Origin: Omnitrophica bacterium GWA2_52_8
GTDB lineage: Bacteria; Omnitrophota; Omnitrophia; Omnitrophales; Aquincolibacteriaceae
Length of the DNA: 19,722 bases
Direction: 5' to 3'
Assembly (NCBI GenBank): GCA_001804025.1
Contig: MHFC01000103.1
Coordinates: forward strand, 62,684-82,405
The notes under the pieces: model-generated
Database searches by the model: none
Told to the model about the DNA's origin: nothing
The model's input: only the letters and a program-made list of their open reading frames with translations
In this document: positions 5,301 to 19,722 of the stretch, in pieces
How positions within the stretch are numbered: position 1 is the stretch's first letter
Layout of the letters: every line of letters begins with the position of its first letter
Made by a program: the position numbers and the translations under genes

Positions 5301-6377
5301 TCAAGCTGTCTGCCGCACGATGAGCTCGGTCTTATAACACTTCTGAATCGGCTCCATCATGGGATCCCCCACCCGCTCAAGTAAAATATCCACCGCATCG
5401 CGCCCCATTTGCGGAAGCGGCTGGTGAATCGTCGTAAGGGAGGGTGAAACAAGCCGCCCTTTTTCAATGTCATCAAAGCCCACCAAGGCCATTTTCTCAC
5501 CCGGCCAGAGTTTGAACTCCTTCAAAACCCGCCAGGCATCCAGGGCGATTTCATCATTCATGGCAACGAGGGCTTCGGGCAGATCCGTCTTTCCAAGCCA
5601 CTCCTTGATCACCTGATAGCTTTCTTCCTGGTTATATGAAGGACACTCGACAATCCACTCTTTCCGGCTAGAAATCCCCTTTTCTTTCAATGCCTCAAGG
5701 AATCCATCGAATTTCTCCTTCGCGTCAAACGAAACTATTTTTTGAGTCTTGGTACCGCTTTGAATCAAAACATCCCGTGGACCGGCAAGGAGAGCTATCT
5801 TTTTGAATCCCCGTCTCAGCAGATAAAATACGGCCTGTTTCATCCCTTCGCGGACGTTGGTATAAAGAACATTGACTTTCAATCCCGGCTTATAGTCGTT
5901 GAAGATTACAAGCGGCAGAGCCCCGGAACTCTTTTCGACAAGCTCGACCACATTGGGATGGCACCGCCAGCTTAGAATCATGAGGCCGTCCACCCCATGT
6001 TCATAAAGAACCTCTTCGATCCGGTCATAGTGATGTTCCCTCAAAATGAAGAACTTAAGCTCGTGGGCGGACCGGAAGGCATGCTCGTGAACACCAGTCA
6101 GGATTTCCGTGTGATAACGGGACCGGAAGATTTCAGACGATGGAAAAGTCAATATGCCGATTGTAGCCTTCTTCTTGGCGCGGCGCTTCCTCGCAAAAAT
6201 ATTGGGCAGATAGCCGGTTTCCAGGACAGCTTTTTCAACCTTGGCCTGGGTTTCAGGAGACAACTCAGGGCGCTTCCGCGGGTCGATAAACCGGGTAACT
6301 GACGAAATGCTGACATCCGCCGCCTTTGCCACATCCCTGATGGTTGGCTGTCTCTTTTCCCGTTTTTTCCGAATCAT
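5301..6377 (-). CDS. LacI-family transcriptional repressor
   Basis: 358 residues, full length for the family. The N-terminal helix-turn-helix (about 11-58) contains TIRDVAKAADVSISSVTRF, followed by a basic hinge and a periplasmic-binding-protein-like effector domain (about 70-350). Diagnostic spots include a substrate-domain start TIGILTFPSSEIFRSRYH, the VAMNDEIALDAWRVL strand-helix and GFDDIEKGRLVSPSLTTIHQ near the end. The ATG at 6375-6377 follows AGGGGAG. Such proteins usually sense sugars or nucleosides and repress catabolic or transport genes. No carbohydrate gene is in view on either side, so the target is elsewhere or has been lost. A perfect inverted repeat in its promoter suggests autoregulation. 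Confidence 0.92.
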   Translation of the reverse strand: MIRKKREKRQPTIRDVAKAADVSISSVTRFIDPRKRPELSPETQAKVEKAVLETGYLPNIFARKRRAKKKATIGILTFPSSEIFRSRYHTEILTGVHEHAFRSAHELKFFILREHHYDRIEEVLYEHGVDGLMILSWRCHPNVVELVEKSSGALPLVIFNDYKPGLKVNVLYTNVREGMKQAVFYLLRRGFKKIALLAGPRDVLIQSGTKTQKIVSFDAKEKFDGFLEALKEKGISSRKEWIVECPSYNQEESYQVIKEWLGKTDLPEALVAMNDEIALDAWRVLKEFKLWPGEKMALVGFDDIEKGRLVSPSLTTIHQPLPQMGRDAVDILLERVGDPMMEPIQKCYKTELIVRQTA

Positions 6378-6812: not shown

Positions 6813-6920
6813 AAGACTTCCGGTCTATATTTGCGATCCAATACTTAGCTCATCATACCAGCGATTCGCACAAGCACAAAGCATAACTTGCTAAGTGCTT
6901 CGTGGTGTAATTGGCGGGCA

Positions 6921-6947
6921 CCCCATAGAATTGCTCTCATTATGGGG
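6921..6947. promoter_or_regulatory. Inverted repeat across the start of the small XRE gene
   Basis: CCCCATA (6921-6927) and TATGGGG (6941-6947) are perfect complements 13 bases apart. The right arm includes the ATG at 6942. No ribosome site is visible in between. It could be an autoregulatory operator or an RNA stem over the start codon. Confidence 0.42.
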
Positions 6948-7157
6948 AAAGAGATACGGCTTAAATTCGGACGAAGAATCCGCCGCTTGAGGGAGAAGAA
7001 GGGATGGACTCAGGAGGAACTGGCTTACCGCGCGGGGCTTGCGGTCCGGCAGGTGCAGTATCTTGAAAGCAAAAACCCCTCACCCGCCAAAATCGATACC
7101 ATCGAAATGATCGCGAAAGCATTCGGCATCAGCTGTTCCCGCCTACTCGATCTCTGA
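6942..7157 (+). CDS. Small XRE-family DNA-binding protein (controller-like)
   Basis: 71 residues, essentially one XRE helix-turn-helix domain (LREKKGWTQEELAYRAGL at about 17-34, then RQVQYLE). The ATG at 6942 is chosen because the domain begins there; a reading from 6888 adds residues unlike the family. Single-domain XRE proteins of this size include the controller proteins of restriction-modification systems and phage-type repressors. It lies end to end with vsr (stops 86 bases apart), at the tail of the defence operon. A role in tuning the methylase or helicase genes is inferred from position alone. Confidence 0.72.
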   Translation: MGKEIRLKFGRRIRRLREKKGWTQEELAYRAGLAVRQVQYLESKNPSPAKIDTIEMIAKAFGISCSRLLDL

Positions 7158-7243: not shown

Positions 7244-7648
7244 TCATATCTTGTCTAATTTCATTAACACTTTTTCTGGCTTCTTTTCAATCTCACATTC
7301 CCAGAGTCTCAGAATCTTCCAACCTGCCTTCCGAAGTTCTCGAATGTGCCTAATATCTCGACGCTTATTCTTCAAAAGTTTTTCCTCCCAATATTCCCTT
7401 TGTGACTTTGGGATGGTGCCGTCTCTGCATTTTGAGTGCAAATGCCAAAAGCACCCATGAACAAAAATAGCAGTATTATGCTTGCGAAGAACAATATCCG
7501 GTTTGCCCGGCAAATTTTCGACATGCAATCTATAGCGGTATTTTTTTAATGAAGATAGCATCTTTCTTACACGCTGTTCTGGCTTTGTATTCGTGCTAAG
7601 AATTTTCGACATGACCTGACTGCGTTTTTCTGGCGTCCAAATATCCAT
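7244..7648 (-). CDS. vsr: Very short patch repair endonuclease Vsr
   Basis: 134 residues from the ATG at 7646-7648, chosen because it gives the family start MDIWTPEKRSQVMSKI; a longer reading overlaps the methylase gene. Key residues match E. coli Vsr by position: PGKPD with D51, FVHGCFWH with H64, W68 and H69, and zinc ligands C66, H71, C74 and C118. The enzyme nicks next to the T of T:G mismatches that arise when 5-methylcytosine deaminates, and polymerase I and ligase complete repair. The gene begins 4 bases after the cytosine methylase stop, so both are made together, as expected for a methylase and its repair partner. It is the last gene of the operon. Confidence 0.93.
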   Translation of the reverse strand: MDIWTPEKRSQVMSKILSTNTKPEQRVRKMLSSLKKYRYRLHVENLPGKPDIVLRKHNTAIFVHGCFWHLHSKCRDGTIPKSQREYWEEKLLKNKRRDIRHIRELRKAGWKILRLWECEIEKKPEKVLMKLDKI

Positions 7649-7652
7649 TAAT

Positions 7653-8813
7653 TCAATTCTTTCTGGAGATGATTGGGTGAATAAATTTATTAAGGCTTTT
7701 GGCAACTTGGTATGCCAGCGGAACAGGAACTCCATTTGATACAACGGTAAACTTCCATGATAACGGCTTGTCTTCCGGCAACGAATATTCATCTGGTATG
7801 CCCTGTATCCTCATCGCCTCCCTTACGCTCAACCGCCTTTTTTCCCATGGATGCAGATGTACTTCATTGTGTCCATAACACGCCGTGGGGCTAAACCGGT
7901 AACGGTGCAAACGTTTAAATGATTTCCGTTTTGTATCACCCTCATTTATATAAGAGAACCGCCGGGATTTTGCCTTGAATGTATCCTTGCCGTTTGGCTG
8001 GCGCTCAGGATAACTTCTGCCGTTTAACACCGTATCTACCATTAACTCTTTTGGAATACCATAGGGCTTTCTTGATTTCCCGCCAAATTTAATCATTCCG
8101 GGCCATTTGTATTTTGTCTTTGCTCCTTTATATTCAGGTATGCTTGGCCAAGAAAACCAGTTACGTTCTCCTGGATCAAGCTCCTTTCCTGCACACTTTT
8201 CCGCCAATGATTTTTCCATACCAATCATGATGAGGCGCTCTCTATCCTGCGGCACACCCATTTCTAAGGAATTTAACACCTTTAGATCAAGACGATAGCC
8301 CGCCTGTTCAAGCTTCTTCTCCCGTTTTTTGAGAAACTCCCGGTGCATGCTTGTGTTATACAATCCAGGAACATTTTCGAAGACAAAAAAAGCCGGTTTT
8401 AATTTACAAATGCGATTAAAGTATACTTTTGTGAGACGGCCATTAATTCCGTGATGCCCTTCATTTTTACCACCGACACTGAAATCAGGGCATGGCGGCC
8501 CGCCAATGACACCAAAGAATTTTGGTTTTCCATCTGGGAATGCCTGTAACGTAATTTTATGAGCAGGTAGACTCTCAATACTTCTTCGGGCGCTTATTTT
8601 TGCTTCTTTTTCATTCTTCTGCGACTTTTTTCTCCATTCTGTCATGCCATATTCATAGAGGCCTGCAAACGCTGGATTCACTTCATTCGTCCATATAATC
8701 TCAAAACCAGCTTGCTCGAAACCCATATCCAGAAAGCCCCCGCCGGTGAAGAAGGAAAGAAGTGGAACCCTTTCCTGATTTTTCTTTTTTAAGCGTTTTT
8801 TTCTTTTTTTCAT
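7653..8813 (-). CDS. DNA cytosine-5 methyltransferase (DruM candidate)
   Basis: 386 residues with a lysine-rich start (1-14). Motif I is LLSFFTGGGFLDMGFEQAGF (18-37), binding S-adenosylmethionine. Motif IV is GGPPCPDFS with catalytic C108 and proline where many relatives have glutamine. Motif VI is ENV (146-148), motif VIII PQDRERLIMIG (188-198), and motif IX/X REAMRIQGIPDEY near 340. The target-recognition region lies between about 200 and 330. No restriction endonuclease of a classic type II pair is adjacent. The ATG overlaps the nuclease gene stop as ATGA (4 bp). Within the operon it would mark self DNA, as DruM does in Druantia type II. Confidence 0.93.
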   Translation of the reverse strand: MKKRKKRLKKKNQERVPLLSFFTGGGFLDMGFEQAGFEIIWTNEVNPAFAGLYEYGMTEWRKKSQKNEKEAKISARRSIESLPAHKITLQAFPDGKPKFFGVIGGPPCPDFSVGGKNEGHHGINGRLTKVYFNRICKLKPAFFVFENVPGLYNTSMHREFLKKREKKLEQAGYRLDLKVLNSLEMGVPQDRERLIMIGMEKSLAEKCAGKELDPGERNWFSWPSIPEYKGAKTKYKWPGMIKFGGKSRKPYGIPKELMVDTVLNGRSYPERQPNGKDTFKAKSRRFSYINEGDTKRKSFKRLHRYRFSPTACYGHNEVHLHPWEKRRLSVREAMRIQGIPDEYSLPEDKPLSWKFTVVSNGVPVPLAYQVAKSLNKFIHPIISRKN

Positions 8814-9895
8814 TCGGTTTTATATCCGGCTGTTAAGGCGGTCTGTATAAAGTAATCCTTCGCTGTATCATGCGCCAGATTACACAACATCAAATTCTTG
8901 CGATCCTCATTTAAAACAAGATGCCTCTCAGGCGATAATCCTCTTACCGCCAAATGTTTTCCTTTACTTTCAATAACGACTCGTATCAATCCGTTCCCTA
9001 ACACTTTCTTTTGGATCACTGCCCCAGATATATCTACTGGCCAGTCATCAGTATCTTCACGCGCATCCCAATAACTCTTGCATGCTGGCCGGTACGCACA
9101 GTAAAAACACGTTTTTGCTGACGGATTTGCAAAAGAATCAGGCGGATCTCTTCTCTTTATTCTGCTATTTATCTCATCGCGTAAGCTCGCAGCATCCTCT
9201 AAAAGCTGTTTGCATTCCTGACTATCAAACGGCACATCATAATGGCGCTGATCAAGGCCTATGACATTGAGTTTTGCCGGCCATTCATTTTTTACCGAGT
9301 AATACAGGCCAGCGTAAAGGCGTAATTGCACTTGGTACTCTTCTTTCGGCTGTTCGCTACCGCCTTCTTTCTCAACGATGGCCCCTGACTTATAGTCAGA
9401 GATTTCTACTCCTTGGCCTGTCGAATGAATAATATCAATTTGTCCTCCCACCTTCCCGTCAACAGACTCAAACCACTGTTCCGTTTTCGATCCTGCGCGA
9501 GATGGGGCGGCGGCTGGTTTGCTATTCTGAGAAATGCTGCGTGCAAACGAAAATGCCATCCGCTGTTTGACTCCATAGTTTCCAGCATGCTTGGCTAATG
9601 GAACAAGATGGCTTTCTAACGGATTAGCCCTCATCCCGTTTTCAACTTCAGAGCAAATCTCATTCCAAGCAGTCAGCAATTCGTCTTCAGTTTGAAGCGG
9701 TCTGTTGGTTGCAATTTCAAAAAGTTTGTGACAAACAATCCCGAGTTTTGCGGCTGGAGAGGCTGGCAGCAATCCAGGTACCCGGTTAGCAGCCCAAATT
9801 TCTTTAAGGGCACAATTTCTTAAGGCTGTAAACCGGCTTGGCGAAATTCGCTTCAAAGGTTGAAGGTGCGATGGATCCATCACCATTGCAGTCAT
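8810..9895 (-). CDS. RecB/Cas4-like PD-(D/E)XK nuclease with iron-sulfur cysteines
   Basis: 361 residues. The N-terminus ISPSRFTALRNCALKEIW is typical of RecB/AddB/Cas4 nucleases and supplies C28. H56 (GIVCHKLFE), D154 (GGQIDII), D167-x-K169 (EISDYKSG) and Q190/Y194 (QVQLRLYAG) form the nuclease active site. C263-x2-C266-x5-C272 completes a four-cysteine cluster spaced exactly as in Cas4. Residues about 285-361 look like an extra beta domain. Cas4/AddB relatives cut or trim DNA ends. It lies 3 bases after the helicase stop and overlaps the methylase start by 4 bases, so it belongs to the same system. There is no cas1, cas2 or repeat array nearby, so CRISPR adaptation is unlikely. It is a candidate effector. 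Confidence 0.85.
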   Translation of the reverse strand: MTAMVMDPSHLQPLKRISPSRFTALRNCALKEIWAANRVPGLLPASPAAKLGIVCHKLFEIATNRPLQTEDELLTAWNEICSEVENGMRANPLESHLVPLAKHAGNYGVKQRMAFSFARSISQNSKPAAAPSRAGSKTEQWFESVDGKVGGQIDIIHSTGQGVEISDYKSGAIVEKEGGSEQPKEEYQVQLRLYAGLYYSVKNEWPAKLNVIGLDQRHYDVPFDSQECKQLLEDAASLRDEINSRIKRRDPPDSFANPSAKTCFYCAYRPACKSYWDAREDTDDWPVDISGAVIQKKVLGNGLIRVVIESKGKHLAVRGLSPERHLVLNEDRKNLMLCNLAHDTAKDYFIQTALTAGYKTE

Positions 9896-9898
9896 GTA

Positions 9899-12800
9899 TC
9901 ACTGCCTCGCCGCAAGCTCTATACGGCACCACCCCGGCCTCCTCAACAGATTGAAAGTATCCAAGAAACCATCTACATCCCCGCCCGCTTGCGCAACAGC
10001 TTCGGCCAAAATCCCTTGCTGGTCATAGGTGTTCCAAAATGGATGAACAACAAGATAACGCCCGCTTGCCGTCCTTATGCCTGGCAGCTGACCCCAAGTA
10101 ACCGGCTCATAATCTTCAAAAAACGATATAAAATTATCCCGGAGGGTAAAAGCATTCTGAATCCATCCGCTGAGTTCCGGACTTGAAAAATTAGCATCCA
10201 GACCCGATCTGTAATTTTGGCTTCTGAGAATCTTAAGATAGCCTACAGCTAGCCGCCAATCCAACAATCCGTGATATGTCATATTTCGGTATACTTTCAG
10301 GCAGTCATAACAAGCTGAATCGCAATTAGTGAAATGATTTTCCTCGATAATTTGAGTTGTGTAGGCTCCTGCTTCTCTTGGTTCACAGATACTTCCAAGA
10401 ATATCACCCAAATTGGTATGGGCCGCCCTCACAAATCCCGCACCATTCGGCAACCGGTCGCTTAAGATGATATCTGCAACAGCGGTATGCCCATCTAAGG
10501 AACGGCGGGTAATATTCGCCACTTCGATCTCCTCGGGGTCAATATCAAGCCTGTCGGCGATTGTTCTTTGTAACAAGAAAGCCGCTGATATAATTGCTGC
10601 CCTCACCGCTCCCTTCGACGAAACCTGATTCAATGTCAAACCGCTTGGAACGGCTTGGGGACTGATGCGTAACACCTCTGTCGTTTTACCGGCAGCCAAT
10701 GCGACACGGTCGGTAACCCCGCCGCCTAAGCTATGTTCAATCCATTGGTTATCCAGCCTAGGTATGCCGCGAGCATCCTGCGGCTGAGGTGGCGGCGGTG
10801 TCTGAATGACTGACCCTTCAAATAATCTTCCGGAATTATCATTTATCCGCCATACTCTTCCGGCTTCTGATAACGATCGTAAACAGTTTGTCCCATCAAT
10901 TAACTGTGCGCCTGACCTGTCCCTTGATTCTGCGAGTGCAGCGGGTATTCCGAACATAACATTTGAATCTTCTTTTGCATCGCTGCCTCTTGATAAATTA
11001 GTCCTGAATGCCTGAGGCACAACGATCTCATATTGTAGATACAACTGATTGTCATCTTCCGGCTGCCCGCATTCTGGACAGCAATTGTCTGCATTACGGG
11101 AATCTCCGGTAATCATGAAGCCACATGATTTACATCTTTGTACCCAGCGCCTGTAAGGAAGCGGATTATCAGATGATGGCGTCCATTGGGTACGGCGCTG
11201 AACGAGTGGCGCCGTAAAGCCAATGGCTGTGTGAATAACTTTATCTTTTGTCTTTTGCGCGCCAGGCGCAAATTCTGTAATGGCAATTTCGAGATCACGT
11301 CCAATGCTGAAATCATGATTTGGAGTCAGCCTGTGGTAGAGTACCCGCGTCCTTGATGGCATGCCAAACATTGGCAATATAGCTGCTTCTGCCAGCCTTT
11401 CTGCCAGGCCGTCACCCGAGAGTTCAGGGTTTACGGCTGCATCATCAATCAAGTGTGGAAGATCCCTTTCAAGCCAATCAAGATATTCTTCTTTCACTTC
11501 ACCTAACAAGCCTTGCAAAATCTCCCGCTGTTCGTCTTTATTGTTTGAAAGCCATGCAACGACAGATGGACGGTTCTGTTGCCACCCGGCTGCTTGATTC
11601 ACTTGGTCTACAGCCAGACCAAATTCTCCATGACTGTCAGGCGGCGTAGGGCTATGCCACCATCGCATGCCTGCCGCGACAAAAGCCCGTCGCAAACATT
11701 CCTTGACGAAAAGTCTTTTTATGATGCGCTCCTGTCCCATCGTAAGAAATGGAACCGGTGGCGGATCTCCAGTAATCCTATCAGGATATGAGAAATAATG
11801 TTCATCATGACTGCGGCCACGGCAAAGTGTTAATACTACTGCAAATGCCTGTCCGCGGCGGCCCGCACGCCCGACTCTTTGCTGGTAATTGAATCTCATT
11901 GGAGGCATATTCGCCAGCATGACGGCCTGCAAGTTGCCAATATCAACACCAACTTCCATTGTTGTCGTCACACTAAGCACATCAATCTCGTCAACTTCCC
12001 GGTAAAATCTTCTGTCCTGCCCAGGCATGTCAATAATGATCCCTCTGAAATGACGCTGACGTTCAAGCTGATTATCAGTCTGGGCAGTGAGCTCTTCGCA
12101 ATGAAGCCGCATAGGAATCCGTCCTTCCGATGCCGCCCATGCCAGGTGATTGGAAGCCCATACAGCACTGCATGCTGTCGATGGCTGTTCAGCCAAAAGA
12201 TTTTGACATGCCGTACAAATGCCTCCGGCACGGTGCAAATGATTCCGGCCGCACCGCGAGCATGTCCAAACTGAATCCTCTGCAATGGCAACGCGAACAC
12301 TCATATGCCGGGTGCTCAATTTTGCATTATGGTGCCCTGATTCCTGAAGTGCACTAAATACTGCTTCCCCTAATGTATCAGAATCAACAGAATGCAAATT
12401 GGAAAGCGCTCTTAAATATCTTTTTAGCGATGCCATCGCATCCCTATAGTGAGGATAATCCGGCTGCGGAAATTCGGAACCCTCATGACGGTATTTGTCT
12501 CCCAATACCCGGAGATATGCATCACATATCTGACGAAATATCTCAGGATCAATCCCCGCGTCATTTGCAAACCGCTGCAAGCTTGCATTATCCAGTTCAA
12601 TCTTGACCCAGCCCAATGCGGCAGATTCAAAGCCAAAATACAGGCGGCCAAAAAACAAGCCGCAAAGGGCTTCCCTCAAGCTTTCATAAATTCTCATTCT
12701 TGCATGATGGGCATCTTGAGGAAGGCCTTGCCGCCAATTATTCCTTCCAAAATCAAAAAGCGTTGTCCAGTGATGCCATTCTTGATGCCAGCCGAACGTC

Positions 12801-15649
12801 TGCATGAGCACGTCATTACCAGCAGGATTTACACCTATTTGAATAACCCTTTTGATGAGGGCACCGCAATCATGAATGTCGTCAGGAGGGGGGAGAAGCG
12901 TCGTGATCGGCAGGACTCTCCTTATACGCCGTTGCCGTATCTGATTTATCTCATTCTGTGCCTTTTGGATTTGCTCCACAACTTGTTCAGGCATCCCCTC
13001 CGGCGATAGCGCAGCAGTCCTTACAAGTCCTCTCAATCGCGCGTCTTCTCCAGGATGCCTTGCTAGAAAATCCTGTGATTCCTGCCTGAGAACCGCTCTG
13101 TTCTGCTCAATATCTTCCAGTAATGACGGCCCGCCTGTAATTTCAACACGAAGCTCATCACAAACAATCTCACGCATCAGTTCCGAATAATGGTTACGCT
13201 CAACACCATTCGAAATCTGCGCCGCATCCTCACGGCTATCAGAAAAAACAACCAGTTTTCGCTCTGCGTTGCTTGTCGAAGACAAATGATAAAATAATTC
13301 TTTTGTAAAAAGCTGGCTGACTTTTGAGAAACCGGTACGGAACCCTCTTACGGGTGACTGCCTGCTTCTTCGTCTAACGTAATTCGTACTGCACGCAGGG
13401 CAGGCGCAAGGCAAAGCCCGGTAGTTACCCTGCTCATTTGCTCCCGCGGCAATAGTGAACAAATATCCTTTTGTCCAATTTTCAGGGTCATCTTCCGCGT
13501 CTTCCTGAGACAATCTCACATGCCCTGTGCGTGTATTCATGCTGGCCGGCTGCCAATTTGCCCAATCGCCCTGTCTTCTTTGAGGATTTAATATCTTTGG
13601 CTGGCGCCAGCGGTCCGGCGAATCATACACCTGCTCACCTTGCGGCCAAAAAACGGCATATTCGTCATATGTCCGCCGGTCTACGAATCGTGCCGCCTGG
13701 CGTTCCGGTATGCCCTCAATATCGGGTGTGGTCGCCAGCATTTCAATAACACCATGCTCAACTTCCAGCCTGCTTCCGCCGAGAAATATTGTCCCGCAGT
13801 GCTCACAGTAAAGCAGCTCCAAAACCCTGTCTCCTTCACGGGAAATAATGCGGGGCGTATGATACAACTCCCCAACTGGACGATGGTCTTCTGCCCCGGG
13901 CAGCGGCCTAGCTGATGCCCATAACCCTTCAATATTCCGGAAAAAATAATGGAGCCTGAATGATGGCAAATCAGTGCGGTAATGAAGATACTTTTCATAC
14001 AGCCCTCTTGCAATCAAAAGGCCCCGCATTGCTTGCTCCTTGCTTTCCTGAGAAGTTCCAGCAAACAACTTTTCTGCTAATTCACGGAGTGAAACGGCAC
14101 GGACATTCACTTCTTTTGTGCAGGCGCTTACGATCCTGGATTTAAGATTCAGCGGCTCTAGCGCACGAAAATACCCGTCAACACTCCGTCCCGAGCTAGC
14201 GTTCAATTTTACGGCCGCTTCCGAGAGAATCCCGTCAGTGAGGTTTGCTGCATTTTCTGCTAAGAATGAAAATGGCTCAATCGGGAGAAGGCCGCTTCCT
14301 TCTTCTGGGGGGACCACGGCAACTTGCGTTCCCTCAATAATGTCAAAATCGCTGGAGCCAAAAAATTCGTTGAGAAACTGGTGGCTCTCGCTTTCCGGGC
14401 CGCCAGCTTCTAATGAGGCGCTTGATGCAAGGACGCGCAGTTGAGGATGGCCGGGGTGAAGGCCCAAGCGAAGGAGCAATAACCGTAACAGATATGCTAC
14501 TTCCGCGCCCGCAGTTCCCCTATAAAGATGAAGCTCGTCCACAATCAAATGAAAGATACGGGATGGTTTAGTCCTTTCTCTTTCACCTGAAGGAAGATCC
14601 TCACATGCCAGCCATGCGCGTGTCTGAGCAAATATCCTCTGGTCACTTTCACGCATCATCATGATGCTTAACATCGAAAAGTTTGTAATCAAAATATCAG
14701 GAGGGCTGTCCTGCATGTCCCAACGGCTTCTCATTTCAGCGCCGTCAAGTTTCGGAAAGAAGTGTACAACGTCTTCTTTGCTTGGATCGGTGTTTCCCGG
14801 ATCATCCGCATACCTTTTTGCTGCTTGCGAAGCCTGGTCAGCCTCATTCATAGCCTCAACCAATGCATCGATTTTTTCTTTTATGTATCTGCGCCTTCCA
14901 TTTGAATCACGGAACTCATGTCCAGGCACAGGCGTTGCGCCATTGTACCTGCCCATATAGACGCGGTTTTGGTCCAGATTGTGCTCAAACCACGAGCGTG
15001 CCGCATCCGAATCCAATGCTCTCCTTAGCCGCGTAAGCTGGTCCTCAACCAAAGCGTTCATAGGGTACAGTATCAGAGCCCGCACAGCCGCAGGCCGTGT
15101 CTCATGTTCCCGTTGTGGAACCCTGTAAGACCGCACAAGGCTTCTCGCAGGCTTGCACTGATTCTTCCAGTCCCCATTTCTCCACCAGTCATTCAAGTGT
15201 ACAGGGGCCGAATCCGGCGCCCGCCAGGAATGCATCTCCTTTGCTAACTGCGCAAACAAAGGCAGCAAAAAAGATTCTGTTTTTCCTGAACCCGTACCCG
15301 CCGTGACAACACAATTCCGGCCATTAAGCGCACGGCGGAGCATCTCCGCCTGATGAACATAAAGCGCATGTGTGCCAAACAATCCGCATTTAACCAAACC
15401 TTTGAAAATGCTGCGTTGATCTTCGTTCATGCCCGGCAAGTCATCACCAGACAAGTCATCAATCATCTTTTTGCTGCTCAAATATGTCGGCAACGGCTCA
15501 ATCCAAGGCTCTTGATTCAGCACACCGCGCTGACGCAACAGTCTCTCCCGCTCGGCTTCTAAAGTTACGAAACGTGTGCCAAAGGCAGTCTTCACATAGA
15601 GAATAAAATTTTCTCTTATCCGGTTAAACGTGCTTACCGGATCAATCAC
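9899..15649 (-). CDS. druE: Giant DUF1998-type superfamily 2 helicase, DruE-like
   Basis: 1916 residues from a GTG at 15647-15649. Motif I TAGTGSGKTES (116-126), motif Ia LYPMNALVEDQ (about 194-204), DELH motif II (371-374), SSASLE motif III (409-414), motif V TTTMEVGVDIG (about 1224-1234) and motif VI QQRVGRAGRRGQ (about 1254-1265) define an ATP-driven helicase. About 800 residues separate the two RecA halves and carry cysteine pairs near 612, 748 and 1130. Further pairs near 1505 and 1523 form a ribbon, and TNCDSACYDCLKVYR near 1774 is the DUF1998 signature. Helicase plus DUF1998 in one chain of this size is the hallmark of Druantia DruE; DISARM splits these between DrmA and DrmB. The start overlaps the preceding gene by 8 bases. 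Helicase identity is certain; the DruE call is probable. Confidence 0.85.
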   Translation of the reverse strand: MIDPVSTFNRIRENFILYVKTAFGTRFVTLEAERERLLRQRGVLNQEPWIEPLPTYLSSKKMIDDLSGDDLPGMNEDQRSIFKGLVKCGLFGTHALYVHQAEMLRRALNGRNCVVTAGTGSGKTESFLLPLFAQLAKEMHSWRAPDSAPVHLNDWWRNGDWKNQCKPARSLVRSYRVPQREHETRPAAVRALILYPMNALVEDQLTRLRRALDSDAARSWFEHNLDQNRVYMGRYNGATPVPGHEFRDSNGRRRYIKEKIDALVEAMNEADQASQAAKRYADDPGNTDPSKEDVVHFFPKLDGAEMRSRWDMQDSPPDILITNFSMLSIMMMRESDQRIFAQTRAWLACEDLPSGERERTKPSRIFHLIVDELHLYRGTAGAEVAYLLRLLLLRLGLHPGHPQLRVLASSASLEAGGPESESHQFLNEFFGSSDFDIIEGTQVAVVPPEEGSGLLPIEPFSFLAENAANLTDGILSEAAVKLNASSGRSVDGYFRALEPLNLKSRIVSACTKEVNVRAVSLRELAEKLFAGTSQESKEQAMRGLLIARGLYEKYLHYRTDLPSFRLHYFFRNIEGLWASARPLPGAEDHRPVGELYHTPRIISREGDRVLELLYCEHCGTIFLGGSRLEVEHGVIEMLATTPDIEGIPERQAARFVDRRTYDEYAVFWPQGEQVYDSPDRWRQPKILNPQRRQGDWANWQPASMNTRTGHVRLSQEDAEDDPENWTKGYLFTIAAGANEQGNYRALPCACPACSTNYVRRRSRQSPVRGFRTGFSKVSQLFTKELFYHLSSTSNAERKLVVFSDSREDAAQISNGVERNHYSELMREIVCDELRVEITGGPSLLEDIEQNRAVLRQESQDFLARHPGEDARLRGLVRTAALSPEGMPEQVVEQIQKAQNEINQIRQRRIRRVLPITTLLPPPDDIHDCGALIKRVIQIGVNPAGNDVLMQTFGWHQEWHHWTTLFDFGRNNWRQGLPQDAHHARMRIYESLREALCGLFFGRLYFGFESAALGWVKIELDNASLQRFANDAGIDPEIFRQICDAYLRVLGDKYRHEGSEFPQPDYPHYRDAMASLKRYLRALSNLHSVDSDTLGEAVFSALQESGHHNAKLSTRHMSVRVAIAEDSVWTCSRCGRNHLHRAGGICTACQNLLAEQPSTACSAVWASNHLAWAASEGRIPMRLHCEELTAQTDNQLERQRHFRGIIIDMPGQDRRFYREVDEIDVLSVTTTMEVGVDIGNLQAVMLANMPPMRFNYQQRVGRAGRRGQAFAVVLTLCRGRSHDEHYFSYPDRITGDPPPVPFLTMGQERIIKRLFVKECLRRAFVAAGMRWWHSPTPPDSHGEFGLAVDQVNQAAGWQQNRPSVVAWLSNNKDEQREILQGLLGEVKEEYLDWLERDLPHLIDDAAVNPELSGDGLAERLAEAAILPMFGMPSRTRVLYHRLTPNHDFSIGRDLEIAITEFAPGAQKTKDKVIHTAIGFTAPLVQRRTQWTPSSDNPLPYRRWVQRCKSCGFMITGDSRNADNCCPECGQPEDDNQLYLQYEIVVPQAFRTNLSRGSDAKEDSNVMFGIPAALAESRDRSGAQLIDGTNCLRSLSEAGRVWRINDNSGRLFEGSVIQTPPPPQPQDARGIPRLDNQWIEHSLGGGVTDRVALAAGKTTEVLRISPQAVPSGLTLNQVSSKGAVRAAIISAAFLLQRTIADRLDIDPEEIEVANITRRSLDGHTAVADIILSDRLPNGAGFVRAAHTNLGDILGSICEPREAGAYTTQIIEENHFTNCDSACYDCLKVYRNMTYHGLLDWRLAVGYLKILRSQNYRSGLDANFSSPELSGWIQNAFTLRDNFISFFEDYEPVTWGQLPGIRTASGRYLVVHPFWNTYDQQGILAEAVAQAGGDVDGFLDTFNLLRRPGWCRIELAARQ

Positions 15650-16655
15650 GAATCACCTCGTCCTCGTCAACGGCCAAGGAGCAAGCTATCAGCTTCTGAC
15701 CTAATTTTTCTGCGACAAGAGTCGCTATATCCGGTGTAACATTCAAATATATTTGCATCTTATGCCCTGCCGGGACCGCTCCTGCTGCAATTTTTGTTTG
15801 TTCAATAACAGGCGGAAAGCCCGAGCATAAAGCCAGTGCCCTGGCCATGAGACACGGCAACGGCAACGTTAAGGGCGCCGCCAGCGCATATGTATTCTCA
15901 TCGTAGAGCAGAATTTGCGATTGCATATGAGATAGGATCACGTATCTGCCCCAATCCCGCTGTACCCCCGCGACCTTGCCTTCTTTCCAGAGCCAATGCA
16001 TACGCTGTTGCGTGACTGGATGCTTATATTCTGCAAGGGACAGGCCACTATTTGAAATATCCGCTTTTTTTGAAAAACCAAGATGACTTACATCAAACAC
16101 ACGGCGCTGCCAATCCGGTTCTCCTTTCTGCTCAAAAGTCAGACCTCGTTCGATTTCGCTGACCGGTGCAGAACAAAGCGCAAGAAGCCACGCCGCAGGC
16201 TGGTCTATTTCACACTGTATGTGCAAATCGTTGGCAATTTCTGCAAGCGTTTGCTGGTCCGCTGTCTCGACATGGACTGATGCTGGAATCGTCGCAACAT
16301 TTCTTCTGCTTGTATCAAGAACCATCCGGGCCTTGCCTATTCGTTTCTTAACAGCTTCTTTTAATAGCGCCATTAGTCTTGGGCTTCTGGCTCCCGTCAA
16401 TACGGCTTTGGGAAGGCCATGCGTTGGCAAAAGGACAAAAGCCGGCGGGCACATGTAAACCATTCTGTCGTCGAAGTCAAATTCACAGTAACCCAGCGCA
16501 TCAAGAGCACGGATCACATGACGGCGGACATCGAAATCTATAGTTTCATCCTTATCAAGCTCTCCCGGCAAGGATACTTTCTTAAAAATGTCATTGAACT
16601 GTTCTATGCGCAACTCCGTCCGCGTACTCATAGCGTAAATCAACTGCTCAGACAT
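15642..16655 (-). CDS. Defence-operon protein of unknown function, DruG-like by position
   Basis: 337 residues from the ATG at 16653-16655, preceded by AAAGGCG. No catalytic motif is evident. The N-terminal part contains a helical, winged-helix-like stretch (FDVRRHVIRALDALGYCEFD). The centre includes SLAEYKHPVTQQRMHWLWKE, and the C-terminus has a conserved-looking LPLPCLMARALALCSGFPP followed by YLNVTPDIATLVAEKLGQ. It overlaps the 693-residue gene by 8 bases (ATGTCTGA) and the helicase by 8 (GTGATTGA), which implies coupled translation and a shared complex. The position directly before the helicase matches an uncharacterised subunit of Druantia type II. Function is unknown; helicase partner is an inference. 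Confidence 0.72.
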   Translation of the reverse strand: MSEQLIYAMSTRTELRIEQFNDIFKKVSLPGELDKDETIDFDVRRHVIRALDALGYCEFDFDDRMVYMCPPAFVLLPTHGLPKAVLTGARSPRLMALLKEAVKKRIGKARMVLDTSRRNVATIPASVHVETADQQTLAEIANDLHIQCEIDQPAAWLLALCSAPVSEIERGLTFEQKGEPDWQRRVFDVSHLGFSKKADISNSGLSLAEYKHPVTQQRMHWLWKEGKVAGVQRDWGRYVILSHMQSQILLYDENTYALAAPLTLPLPCLMARALALCSGFPPVIEQTKIAAGAVPAGHKMQIYLNVTPDIATLVAEKLGQKLIACSLAVDEDEVIRD

Positions 16656-18729
16656 TTTGCGCCGCCTTTACATATTTTCGCCACATATCTCTGATTTGAG
16701 GAATTACAGGCTCATCAATAACTTTCCGGTTGTAATACACAATCTCTTTCCATTCGCGGACTGCCTTCCTGTCCTCAAGAGGGATTCCAGGGTTTTGGTT
16801 ATCCGCGGCTTGCCCCATATTTCCGCAGAATACGGCTTCCGATATTTTCCGGGACATCCTGGCAATAGCCCAAACGGGTTTCCACGCTCTGGGTAGCTCT
16901 TCCGATGGCCAGCGGGCAAATTGGCCTGGCCGTGAACCAACAAAAGTAATCCTGCTGGACAGATGAAGCGGCAGCCTTTTGGGGTAAGGAGGAAAAGAAC
17001 CATTGCTTCCGGTATTAACAATGGCACCGCTAACTTTGCCTTTCTGCATTTCTGTTTTGCAAAAATTTCCCGCACTGTCACGGCGTGGTGTTTTATCAAA
17101 CGAAAGCGGGAGGTGCGGTTCCTCAAGCCTGAGCATACGTTTCAAAGTATATTCACCCGAAGCCACCTCAACATGAAGCGGCTGCCCAACAGGCATTTTA
17201 GCTGGAATGCACCAGACCGGAATACCACCATCGAATCTCTTCGCCTTTGCTTTATTAACTGTTACGGCTTCATTTCCCTGGCCGTTATCAATAACAATGT
17301 CCGGCGGAGCAAAAGCGAGGTAAGTATTCCCCATCCCTGTTTTAATACCGCCTCGCAAAAGCAAACGGGCAGATGATGAAACTGACAGAGCATCAATACT
17401 TGGGCATGGCTTTAATGCGTTTTTGCCATGAAACAGTTTCCAGCCAGCAGGCAAACCGGTAACGCTTTCTTCCTGCAATTCCTGGCAACCATCTCTTCCC
17501 CAATTCATAACCGTTTCAATATCCTTGCCATAAGCTGCCACATAGAACTCCATCCCCCGCTCCAGACGCTGTTTTTCTATCCATTCCGAAAAGCCATCGT
17601 GCTTGCCCGAAAGGAATAGCCGCGTTGTGGCACCCCTCAGTTTTGCCCGCCAATGGTGATCTGCGTCGTTCAACTGCACTCCTTCCACCCAATCAAGCGA
17701 TGCCCCGTCAAGCTTAACGGCTGGCTTTGTATCAGAATTCTTTAAAAGCGTAGACCACCCCTGGCACGATTCGTTGCATGACCAAATATTACTATCCCCT
17801 CTCCGTGTAAAATTTAAACCGTCTTCAGGAAAAGTCTTCCCAGTTTTAAAACGAACATAGCATTTGACGGTTCTGGCGAATGTATCGAAAGCAAGACAGA
17901 TCCGCAAACCTGCATGCGTTCTTCGCCTGGCCGTCTCCGTCGCATCCTGCTCCAGGTCTTCAAGGACAGTACCATCCCATTCCTCCAATTCATCCAGCAC
18001 AACATTAATCAAGGCATTCTTTAAAACGAGATCGTCTTTCTTTTCGCTAGTCAGCAATTGACGAGTCCGTTTTTCCAGAACATCCTCGCCATATTTCCTG
18101 AGGATACGGATAATCACTTCGGGCGCAGGAGAATCCACCGGGTCAAGCCCGGCTTCATCAAAAATATTCGGCAAATGTCTTCTTTCATCCTCTGAAATAA
18201 TCGTCTGCGATAGTGGCAAGCCTACCTTCCACCAGCTGCCGCGGATTCTCGCCTCAAAACGCCCAAGCTGTTCATGCTGATCTTCTTTACTCCATTTTTC
18301 GAGATCGTCCCAGAGTTCGATCATTCTGTCAAATGAAGGAAGCCCTCCCGCATCTTCAGCCCTGCCAAGCAGTTTATTTAAACGCGGATAATAGGCGTGA
18401 GGGGCAAAATCGCCCTCCGTCCCGGCCGCAAGCACAAAACAAGCAAGATATGCAATATATGGCGGATATGAAAGGTCTTTTGACCTCCACACTTCCAGCG
18501 CTTGAACGGCTTTTTGACAAAACCCCTGCCTTGTAGCCCACTCAGGACCTGCATTAAGGGCGTTGATAAAATCAAGCATGCCAACTCCGAAAGGAGTGCC
18601 GAGTTTTTCAATAAGCGGCTCATTGACATATAGCAACACTTCCTTCCCGGCTCTTTCTTCATTGAAGAAGTGCTTTGCGATCAATTCATTCCATTGTAGG
18701 CACGAAAGTTTTGATATAATGTCGGGCAT
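16648..18729 (-). CDS. Large defence-operon protein of unknown function, DruF-like by position
   Basis: 693 residues from the ATG at 18727-18729, with only a weak ribosome site. Visible landmarks are an N-terminal WNELIAKHFFNEERAGKEVL (13-32), a central SWWKVGLPLSQTIISEDERR (165-184), an acidic region at about 230-265 and a beta-rich second half with PEDGLNFTRRGDSNIWSCNE near 300-320. No Walker, nuclease or methylase motif, signal peptide or membrane helix is apparent. It follows the 58-residue HTH gene by 69 bases and overlaps the 337-residue gene by 8. A large uncharacterised protein in this place fits one of the extra Druantia type II subunits. I do not assign a biochemical activity. Confidence 0.72.
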   Translation of the reverse strand: MPDIISKLSCLQWNELIAKHFFNEERAGKEVLLYVNEPLIEKLGTPFGVGMLDFINALNAGPEWATRQGFCQKAVQALEVWRSKDLSYPPYIAYLACFVLAAGTEGDFAPHAYYPRLNKLLGRAEDAGGLPSFDRMIELWDDLEKWSKEDQHEQLGRFEARIRGSWWKVGLPLSQTIISEDERRHLPNIFDEAGLDPVDSPAPEVIIRILRKYGEDVLEKRTRQLLTSEKKDDLVLKNALINVVLDELEEWDGTVLEDLEQDATETARRRTHAGLRICLAFDTFARTVKCYVRFKTGKTFPEDGLNFTRRGDSNIWSCNESCQGWSTLLKNSDTKPAVKLDGASLDWVEGVQLNDADHHWRAKLRGATTRLFLSGKHDGFSEWIEKQRLERGMEFYVAAYGKDIETVMNWGRDGCQELQEESVTGLPAGWKLFHGKNALKPCPSIDALSVSSSARLLLRGGIKTGMGNTYLAFAPPDIVIDNGQGNEAVTVNKAKAKRFDGGIPVWCIPAKMPVGQPLHVEVASGEYTLKRMLRLEEPHLPLSFDKTPRRDSAGNFCKTEMQKGKVSGAIVNTGSNGSFPPYPKRLPLHLSSRITFVGSRPGQFARWPSEELPRAWKPVWAIARMSRKISEAVFCGNMGQAADNQNPGIPLEDRKAVREWKEIVYYNRKVIDEPVIPQIRDMWRKYVKAAQNV

Positions 18730-18798
18730 ATCTGACCGTTCTAAATCCGGCTACCGAATCTTTTGCTTAACCGGTTTTTTCCTCCATCAAATGACTGG

Positions 18799-18975
18799 TT
18801 ATTTATTCGATCTCGCTTCAATAAACTTCTCCAAATCTTCAGGTTTAATTCTCCACCTCCCGACCTTCGTGGCTTTGATCTGCTTCAAAACAATAAGCTC
18901 CCTTACTCGCTCTTCGGTCAAGCCAAGGCTTTTCGCTGCTTTATCAACTGTCAGATATCTACTAAGATCAACCAT
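18799..18975 (-). CDS. 58-residue helix-turn-helix (excisionase/MerR-like) protein
   Basis: The reading frame starts at the ATG 18973-18975 and ends with TAA at 18799-18801. It begins MVDLSRYLTVDKAAKSLGLT and continues with a recognition helix EERVRELIVLKQI, a wing KVGRWRIKPEDLEKF and a short tail. This is the HTH_17 layout found in excisionases and small MerR-like regulators. GAGGA lies about 12-16 bases upstream. As the first gene of the defence operon, just after three phased repeats, it is a good candidate for the operon's own regulator. An excisionase role is possible, but no integrase is in the window. The gene is short and easily missed. Confidence 0.78.
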   Translation of the reverse strand: MVDLSRYLTVDKAAKSLGLTEERVRELIVLKQIKATKVGRWRIKPEDLEKFIEARSNK

Positions 18976-19420: not shown

Positions 19421-19722
19421 CTAACGAGGAGAACCGGGTAGTGACCTCATTTCTGATTGAGAATTTAAGACGTTCAATTCGTTTTGCATAATGGCCTGCG
19501 CATTATGCCGGCTTCCGTCCGGGAAAATGATCTGATACGGTTCCCCGCTCTTCTTTGATCCGCTTAGAACTTTTGCCACGAAATCCTCATCCGTATCTAT
19601 TACCTCATGATATGTTTTGTACCACCACCCGAGTTTCCATCTCAGAAACCGGGCCGCGTCAGATCCATTATAAGTTGAGCCGTTTCGATAAAGCTTGGCA
19701 TCTGAAGACCGGATTCTGTATA
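19421..19722 (-). CDS. DUF5329-like protein, C-terminal part only
   Basis: The minus strand is open from the window edge to the TAG at 19421-19423, giving 99 residues with no start in view. The segment KLYRNGSTYNGSDAARFLR followed by FVAKVLSGSKKSGEPYQIIF and a DGS...A...L ending fits the DUF5329 pattern (variable RNGxxYxxxxAAxFLRxK and SGxPYxIxF). Members are short, usually secreted, proteins of unknown function. The N-terminus with any signal peptide lies beyond the window. It is separated from the defence operon by about 450 bp and is transcribed in the same direction, so it probably marks the flank of the island. Confidence 0.65.
   Translation of the reverse strand, partial: YRIRSSDAKLYRNGSTYNGSDAARFLRWKLGWWYKTYHEVIDTDEDFVAKVLSGSKKSGEPYQIIFPDGSRHNAQAIMQNELNVLNSQSEMRSLPGSPR

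Follow-up and report, generated by a model that had tools for sequence, protein, structure and literature searches.

Gene content of the operon

The window analyzed here, a 19,722-nucleotide stretch of contig MHFC01000103.1 from Omnitrophica bacterium GWA2_52_8, carries seven genes on the minus strand at positions 7244–18975, in the order HTH, DruF, DruL, DruE, DruK, DruM, and Vsr. According to the coordinates and a reading of the sequence, the junctions from DruF onward measure −8, −8, +3, −4, and +4 bases, and the HTH gene lies upstream, separated from DruF by a gap of 69 bases. An earlier, sequence-only reading of this DNA described seven genes on one strand, closely packed from the 693-residue gene to vsr, and assigned them to a Druantia operon in which a cytosine methylase of the DruM type and a DUF1998 helicase are joined by a PD-(D/E)XK nuclease and Vsr. 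All seven genes were found where it had placed them, and the profiles agree with this assignment. Pfam and NCBIfam models, where they exist, concur (DEAD, Helicase_C, MZB/DUF1998, PDDEXK_1, DNA_methylase, and Vsr). The long open frames, the tight coupling of the genes, and best PADLOC E-values of 4.6e-22 to 0 exclude the operon as a product of chance.

The first gene (18799–18975, minus strand) encodes a 58 amino acid protein of the HTH_17 family (Pfam E 3.4e-12), a putative regulator. The sequence-only reading counted it as part of a variant system. The gene is indeed present, but a close relative occurs in just 1 of the 80 other loci surveyed (L029, Candidatus Fischerbacteria), and it was rejected as a defining part on this count, which comes from a single-sequence query that is blind to unrelated HTH genes. 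A Cro/C1-type HTH gene on the plus strand (6888–7157) is convergent with vsr, and a LacI-family regulator lies beyond it on the minus strand (5301–6377). An incomplete minus-strand frame at the window edge (19421–19720) matches DUF5329 (E 7.6e-15).

DruF (16648–18729, minus strand) is a protein of 693 amino acids that matches the PADLOC profiles DruF4 (E 5e-223) and DruF2 (E 5e-216). It is composed of a helical N-terminal part followed by beta-rich parts, including an Ig-like sandwich near residues 451–539, and its AF2 model has a mean pLDDT of 84.4. DruL (15642–16655, minus strand) has 337 amino acids, matches DruL4 (E 1.8e-101), and gave a confident AlphaFold model (pLDDT 89.7). A fold search of the PDB revealed no convincing relative of either model. 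The sequence-only reading allowed that these two proteins might belong to another system, for example DISARM or a phosphorothioate system. Neither has a phosphorothioate or DISARM profile match in PADLOC, where the 337 and 693 amino acid proteins matched Dru profiles only, with 4 and 9 matches, respectively.

DruE (9899–15649, minus strand) is a 1916 amino acid SF2 helicase of the YprA/DUF1998 family. It contains DEAD, Helicase_C, and MZB/DUF1998 domains, the last of which scores exactly the gathering score of 24.2 bits, and the helicase motifs AGTGSGKT, DELH, SAS, and QRVGRAGR were found. Its matches to PADLOC DruE2 (1884 and 1867 bits) and DruE4 (1844 bits) span almost the full length, which identifies it as a Druantia helicase, irrespective of type. 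DISARM was rejected, as DruE scores 39 bits against DrmA versus 1884 against DruE, and DruM scores 111 bits against DrmMII versus 441 against DruM2.

DruK (8810–9895, minus strand) is a 361 amino acid PD-(D/E)XK nuclease of the Cas4/AddB type, matching PADLOC DruK (E 4.6e-22) and Pfam PDDEXK_1 (E 1.2e-17). Residues C28, C263, C266, and C272 form a predicted 4Fe-4S site. Together with H56, D154, D167-x-K169, and Q190xxxY194, they are all conserved in every aligned sequence but one (34 of 35, window included); the exception is cut by its contig end. This alignment comprises matches of 250–450 amino acids only and includes a second, weak match from L008 (254 amino acids, 24 bits) that is perhaps a Cas4. 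Cas4/AddB-type nucleases with a 4Fe-4S cluster have this residue set. DruK is already a profile in PADLOC-DB, and a whole-word search of open-licence PMC texts found no paper in which "DruK" appears together with "Druantia".

DruM (7653–8813, minus strand) is a cytosine-5 DNA methyltransferase of 386 amino acids (Pfam PF00145, E 6.8e-49) with the motifs FTGGG, PPC, ENV, and QDRER. It matches PADLOC DruM2 at E 7.8e-133, and the strongest of the generic profiles for type II methylases gives 4.5e-114. The last gene, vsr, encodes a protein of the mismatch-nicking endonuclease family (TIGR00632, 128 bits with a cut-off of 97.85; PADLOC Vsr, E 2.3e-24). The ORF caller started it at 7792, inside DruM, giving 182 amino acids, of which the Vsr domain begins only at residue 49–50. 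An ATG at 7648, 4 bases past the DruM stop at 7653, yields a 134 amino acid protein when the sequence is read by eye; the predicted start is therefore corrected to 7648, and the gene spans 7244–7648 on the minus strand. Vsr residues E24, D51, C66, F67, W68, and H69 are conserved in all 31 aligned sequences (window included), and position 64 is variable (H in 19, D in 7, and N in 5). D51 and H69 are part of the active site in the E. coli enzyme, whose DNA wedge includes F67 and W68. As in Dcm–Vsr very short patch repair, a cytosine methylase is directly followed by a Vsr with D51, F67, W68, and H69, here with 4 bases between the two genes, but this pair is embedded in a helicase–nuclease defence operon.

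Relationship to Druantia types II and IV

In the relevant passages of Payne et al. 2021 (PMC8565338), Druantia type IV is defined by DruE, DruF, and DruL and lacks the DruM and DruG of type II, whose parts are restated as DruM, DruF, DruG, and DruE. In open-licence PMC texts, the phrase "Druantia type IV" appears nowhere outside this PADLOC paper. PADLOC profiles found DruE, DruF, and DruL all present in the operon, which also shares the absence of DruG with type IV. In contrast to the 2021 wording for that type, DruE is followed by DruM, DruK, and Vsr. The operon shares DruE, DruF, and DruM with type II but has no DruG, and DruL, apparently the C-terminal domain of DruF, is a separate gene. 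None of the nine window proteins scanned has a PADLOC DruG profile among the matches listed, and no spare gene lies between DruF and Vsr, although a DruG-like gene in L055, named by its place only, likewise has no DruG profile match. Strict type II, the composition that the sequence-only reading had proposed, was rejected because DruG is absent and the 337 amino acid protein is DruL, a type IV marker. Judged from its gene complement, the operon belongs to a Druantia II/IV continuum, being type IV by DruL and the lack of DruG and type II by DruM.

Related loci contain 28 ORFs, each from a different locus, in which DruF and DruL form a single protein; two of these ORFs are short (L038 and L049). 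Fusions of about 930–1040 residues occur in L019–L021, L023–L024, L026–L027, L031–L032, L034–L035, and others. In the L019 fusion, which was scanned as an example, the PADLOC DruF4 profile spans residues 2–591 and DruL4 spans residues 617–932. The window DruL also matches positions 786–1006 of the 1011-position DruF2 profile (PADLOC, E 3.8e-10). An alignment of DruL matched the C-terminal portion of the DruF sequences of 10 loci that carry a DruG-like gene, at an hhalign probability of 95.2 (E 2.5e-8); against the DruG-like, DruK, and DruM alignments, the probability was just 0.1 to 0.6. On these comparisons, the most plausible reading of DruL is a C-terminal DruF domain that has become detached, so that types II and IV would intergrade. 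The PADLOC split between them would partly reflect gene fission, while the methylase and the nuclease come and go.

Distribution of the nuclease, methylase, and Vsr

The best 80 of at least 559 confirmed genome loci, together with the window, made up a survey set of 81 loci, and the rates given here hold for close relatives. Genes were placed with local profiles, and any ORF that matched a DruM-seeded profile within the retrieved sequence, which extended up to 10 kb to either side, was counted as a methylase. DruK matches were found in 37 of the 81 loci, mostly directly after DruE, counting a doubtful match in L076 (1102 amino acids, 54 bits) and a DruK in pieces in L013. The nuclease that the sequence-only reading took for an addition of this operon is therefore present but not peculiar to it, and PADLOC already holds its profile. 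That reading would also have been undermined if the nuclease and vsr occurred in one genome only; both recur among the surveyed loci, and a one-genome oddity was rejected.

A cytosine methylase was found in 60 of the 81 loci and Vsr in 31. Vsr occurs in 31 of the 60 methylase-bearing loci and in 0 of the 21 methylase-free loci (Fisher 9.7e-6), with L029 counted as methylase-bearing by tblastn without an ORF match, a 40-residue Vsr-like remnant in L054 left uncounted, and the methylase-free loci including 14 cyanobacterial ones and several short contigs. When at least 5 kb was available on both sides of DruE, Vsr was present in 28 of 48 loci with a methylase and 0 of 11 without, L029 again being taken as methylase-bearing; by ORF matches alone, with L029 as methylase-free, the figures are 27 of 47 and 1 of 12. 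Vsr is missing from about half of the loci that carry a methylase and is therefore dispensable. It is a candidate accessory that accompanies the other half of the methylase-bearing loci examined.

DruE, DruF, DruK, a methylase, and Vsr occur together, by ORF, in 17 loci (window included), on one strand in 10. The nine other one-strand sets come from Nitrospirota, Planctomycetota, Bacteroidota, and Ignavibacteriota. L029 (Candidatus Fischerbacteria) adds another full set; its DruE and DruM were recovered with tblastn and not as whole ORFs. By a count made by eye, a methylase lies within 100 bases after DruK on the same strand in 20 of the other 80 loci, and these 20 come from five phyla. Among Bacillota loci, the methylase lies upstream of DruF in L008 and L011 and downstream of DruE, without DruK, in L009 and L047. 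The place of the methylase varies in these four loci, and DruM and DruK are separable. In 12 loci, a gene of 672–793 amino acids stands in the place of DruG, and Vsr is present in 11 of them; these loci are relatives of one another on the DruE tree, and their DruG-like genes were assigned solely from position and length.

Cytosine methylases outside Druantia loci served as a control. Vsr lies within 12 kb of 8 of 53 such methylases in 44 host genomes, so that the rate at Druantia loci (31 of 60) is about 3.4 times as high (Fisher 5.7e-5). The control covers 44 of the 80 loci and takes in 27 of the 30 other Vsr loci, which inflates its own Druantia figure of 28 of 44. Within 1.5 kb, Vsr accompanies 21 of 44 Druantia methylases, a rate likewise inflated by the choice of loci, versus 7 of the 53 others in these 44 genomes. 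Matches less than 1 kb apart on one strand were merged in counting the 53, which joins one neighbouring pair.

The distance between Vsr and the methylase is below 200 bases in 17 of 30 loci, and both are on the same strand in 25 of 30. Vsr is opposed to the direction of DruE in 12 loci, in 7 of which the methylase is turned alike, and in 6 of the 30 loci the methylase and Vsr stand at opposite ends of the operon, 10.3–10.7 kb apart. On a FastTree phylogeny of 76 DruE sequences, Vsr shows at least 14 state changes versus 6 each for DruM and DruK; the tree omits 5 of the 81 loci, which have no DruE ORF of 1500 amino acids. Tree-aware pair tests of gene co-occurrence on the 76 rows of this tree were not significant. 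Vsr distances correlate with those of DruM (r 0.59) and DruE (r 0.66), and the partial correlations are 0.41 for Vsr and DruE given DruM and 0.22 for Vsr and DruM given DruE. Such correlations can come from common descent without a functional tie.

A further sample of 395 Bacteroidota genomes contained nine with DruE at E 1e-100, two of which were already in the survey. In five of the seven new loci, a methylase lies within 1.3 kb of DruE, and Vsr is near three of those five: adjoining the methylase, between DruE and the methylase, and 3.4 kb past the other end of DruE, respectively. Of the remaining two genomes, one has no methylase at all and no Vsr near DruE, and in the other, a methylase and Vsr sit together while DruE is on a different contig. 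The source genome of the window (82% complete) has a single Vsr and a single cytosine methylase, both in the operon.

Proposed function and genomic setting

The operon probably serves phage defence by targeting DNA, within the Druantia II/IV continuum and with Vsr as the repair partner of DruM; phage protection is assigned by analogy. From the observed gene content, protein families, conserved catalytic residues, and repeated co-occurrence, we infer the following activities and interactions. DruM would mark host DNA with 5-methylcytosine. DruF with DruL, a single protein in many relatives, could act as a sensor or scaffold for DruE, which would travel along DNA recognised as foreign and expose single strands. 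DruK, as a RecB/Cas4-type iron-sulphur nuclease, would degrade the strands exposed by DruE. Vsr would nick T:G mismatches produced by deamination of 5-methylcytosine in DruM sites, so that the self-mark does not mutate the host; most likely, it repairs the T:G mismatches that arise from DruM methylation. If Vsr serves DruM in this way, the mutational cost of 5-methylcytosine self-marking is paid inside the defence operon.

Vsr could instead be a working part of the defence. It would then nick T:G or unmethylated incoming DNA as an entry point for DruE and DruK, or addict the cell to DruM, with the loss of DruM turning Vsr into a source of DNA breaks and keeping the operon in place. Vsr would be a new Druantia effector if it does more than repair. 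We consider this unlikely, given that Vsr is missing from about half of the loci with a methylase and from all 21 methylase-free loci, and that its conserved residues are those of ordinary mismatch-specific Vsr, as judged against the E. coli enzyme. Several observations nevertheless point towards a defence role: Vsr stays with the locus even in the 6 of 30 cases where over 10 kb separates it from DruM, it tracks DruE given DruM, and of the 12 loci with a DruG-like gene, 11 have it. In the relevant part of one report, loss of the Caulobacter methylase ScmA leads to a DNA-damage response that is strictly VsrA-dependent (PMC12907096), and parts of two others describe Vsr-type domains fused to helicases in related systems (PMC12458937, PMC11090510). 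A broader version, in which Druantia II/IV loci are self-contained epigenetic packages with a 5-methylcytosine mark, a dedicated Vsr repair enzyme, and a Vsr that also penalises methylase loss or cuts, is likewise doubtful. If true, Vsr would be a functional defence element beyond a housekeeping companion.

It is quite improbable that DruM and Vsr are an ordinary Dcm–Vsr pair beside a Druantia type IV core plus DruK. Such pairs are classical, the E. coli pair being in one operon according to a passage of PMC12907096, and in 7 loci the two genes share an orientation opposed to that of DruE. However, junctions of −4 and +4 bases flank DruM in the window, a Druantia profile suits DruM better than the generic ones, and the methylase follows DruK closely on the same strand in 20 of the 80 other loci. 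Vsr is also about 3.4 times as frequent here as beside other cytosine methylases.

Related operons provide partial precedents. MORC operons combine SFII helicases with cytosine methylases and Vsr-superfamily nucleases, as described in a section of Iyer et al. 2008 (PMC2292703). The window shares with these MORC/paraMORC restriction operons an SFII helicase, a cytosine methylase, an RE-fold nuclease, and a Vsr-superfamily nuclease in one neighbourhood. The same section, however, assigns GHKL ATPases to the MORC/paraMORC operons and sorts their helicases into Rad25-like, SWI2/SNF2, and a third distinct type; the scanned proteins of the window gave no match to GHKL. The YprA-family ARMADA systems share the YprA-family helicase with the operon, and in the relevant part of a preprint, Druantia I and II are filed as Type IV CoCoNuTs (Bell et al. 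2025, PMC12458937). In ARMADA, a Vsr-type domain is fused to the helicase, whereas Vsr is a separate gene here. No published association of Vsr as a separate companion gene with Druantia was found in open-licence PMC texts. Three of these texts mention both Druantia and Vsr, two being versions of one work, and passages of two of the three describe Vsr as a helicase-fused domain. A recurrent separate vsr gene with Druantia thus seems unreported within the open-licence literature, and the combination of helicase, methylase, and Vsr itself has precedent.

The operon is located near the end of an 82 kb contig. Among 58 genomes searched (the source genome and its kin), a close DruE was found only in the source genome; G050 has a distant DruE, a 1870-residue frame matched in four pieces at 33–46% identity, and G014 has one short, weak match. 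A conjugative element or plasmid may carry the operon, and horizontal arrival on a conjugative element is likely.

A TraD-like coupling protein and a MobC-family gene occupy positions 3–2144 of the window on the minus strand, and TraC/VirB4-like and ParB genes occur further along the contig (L089, G000:C103:40001-60000). A 708 amino acid protein in the same region (L089:13320-15446, minus strand) weakly matches SNF2-type helicases, DISARM DrmD, and an anti-phage protein of the phospholipase-D kind, and is possibly the product of a second defence gene.
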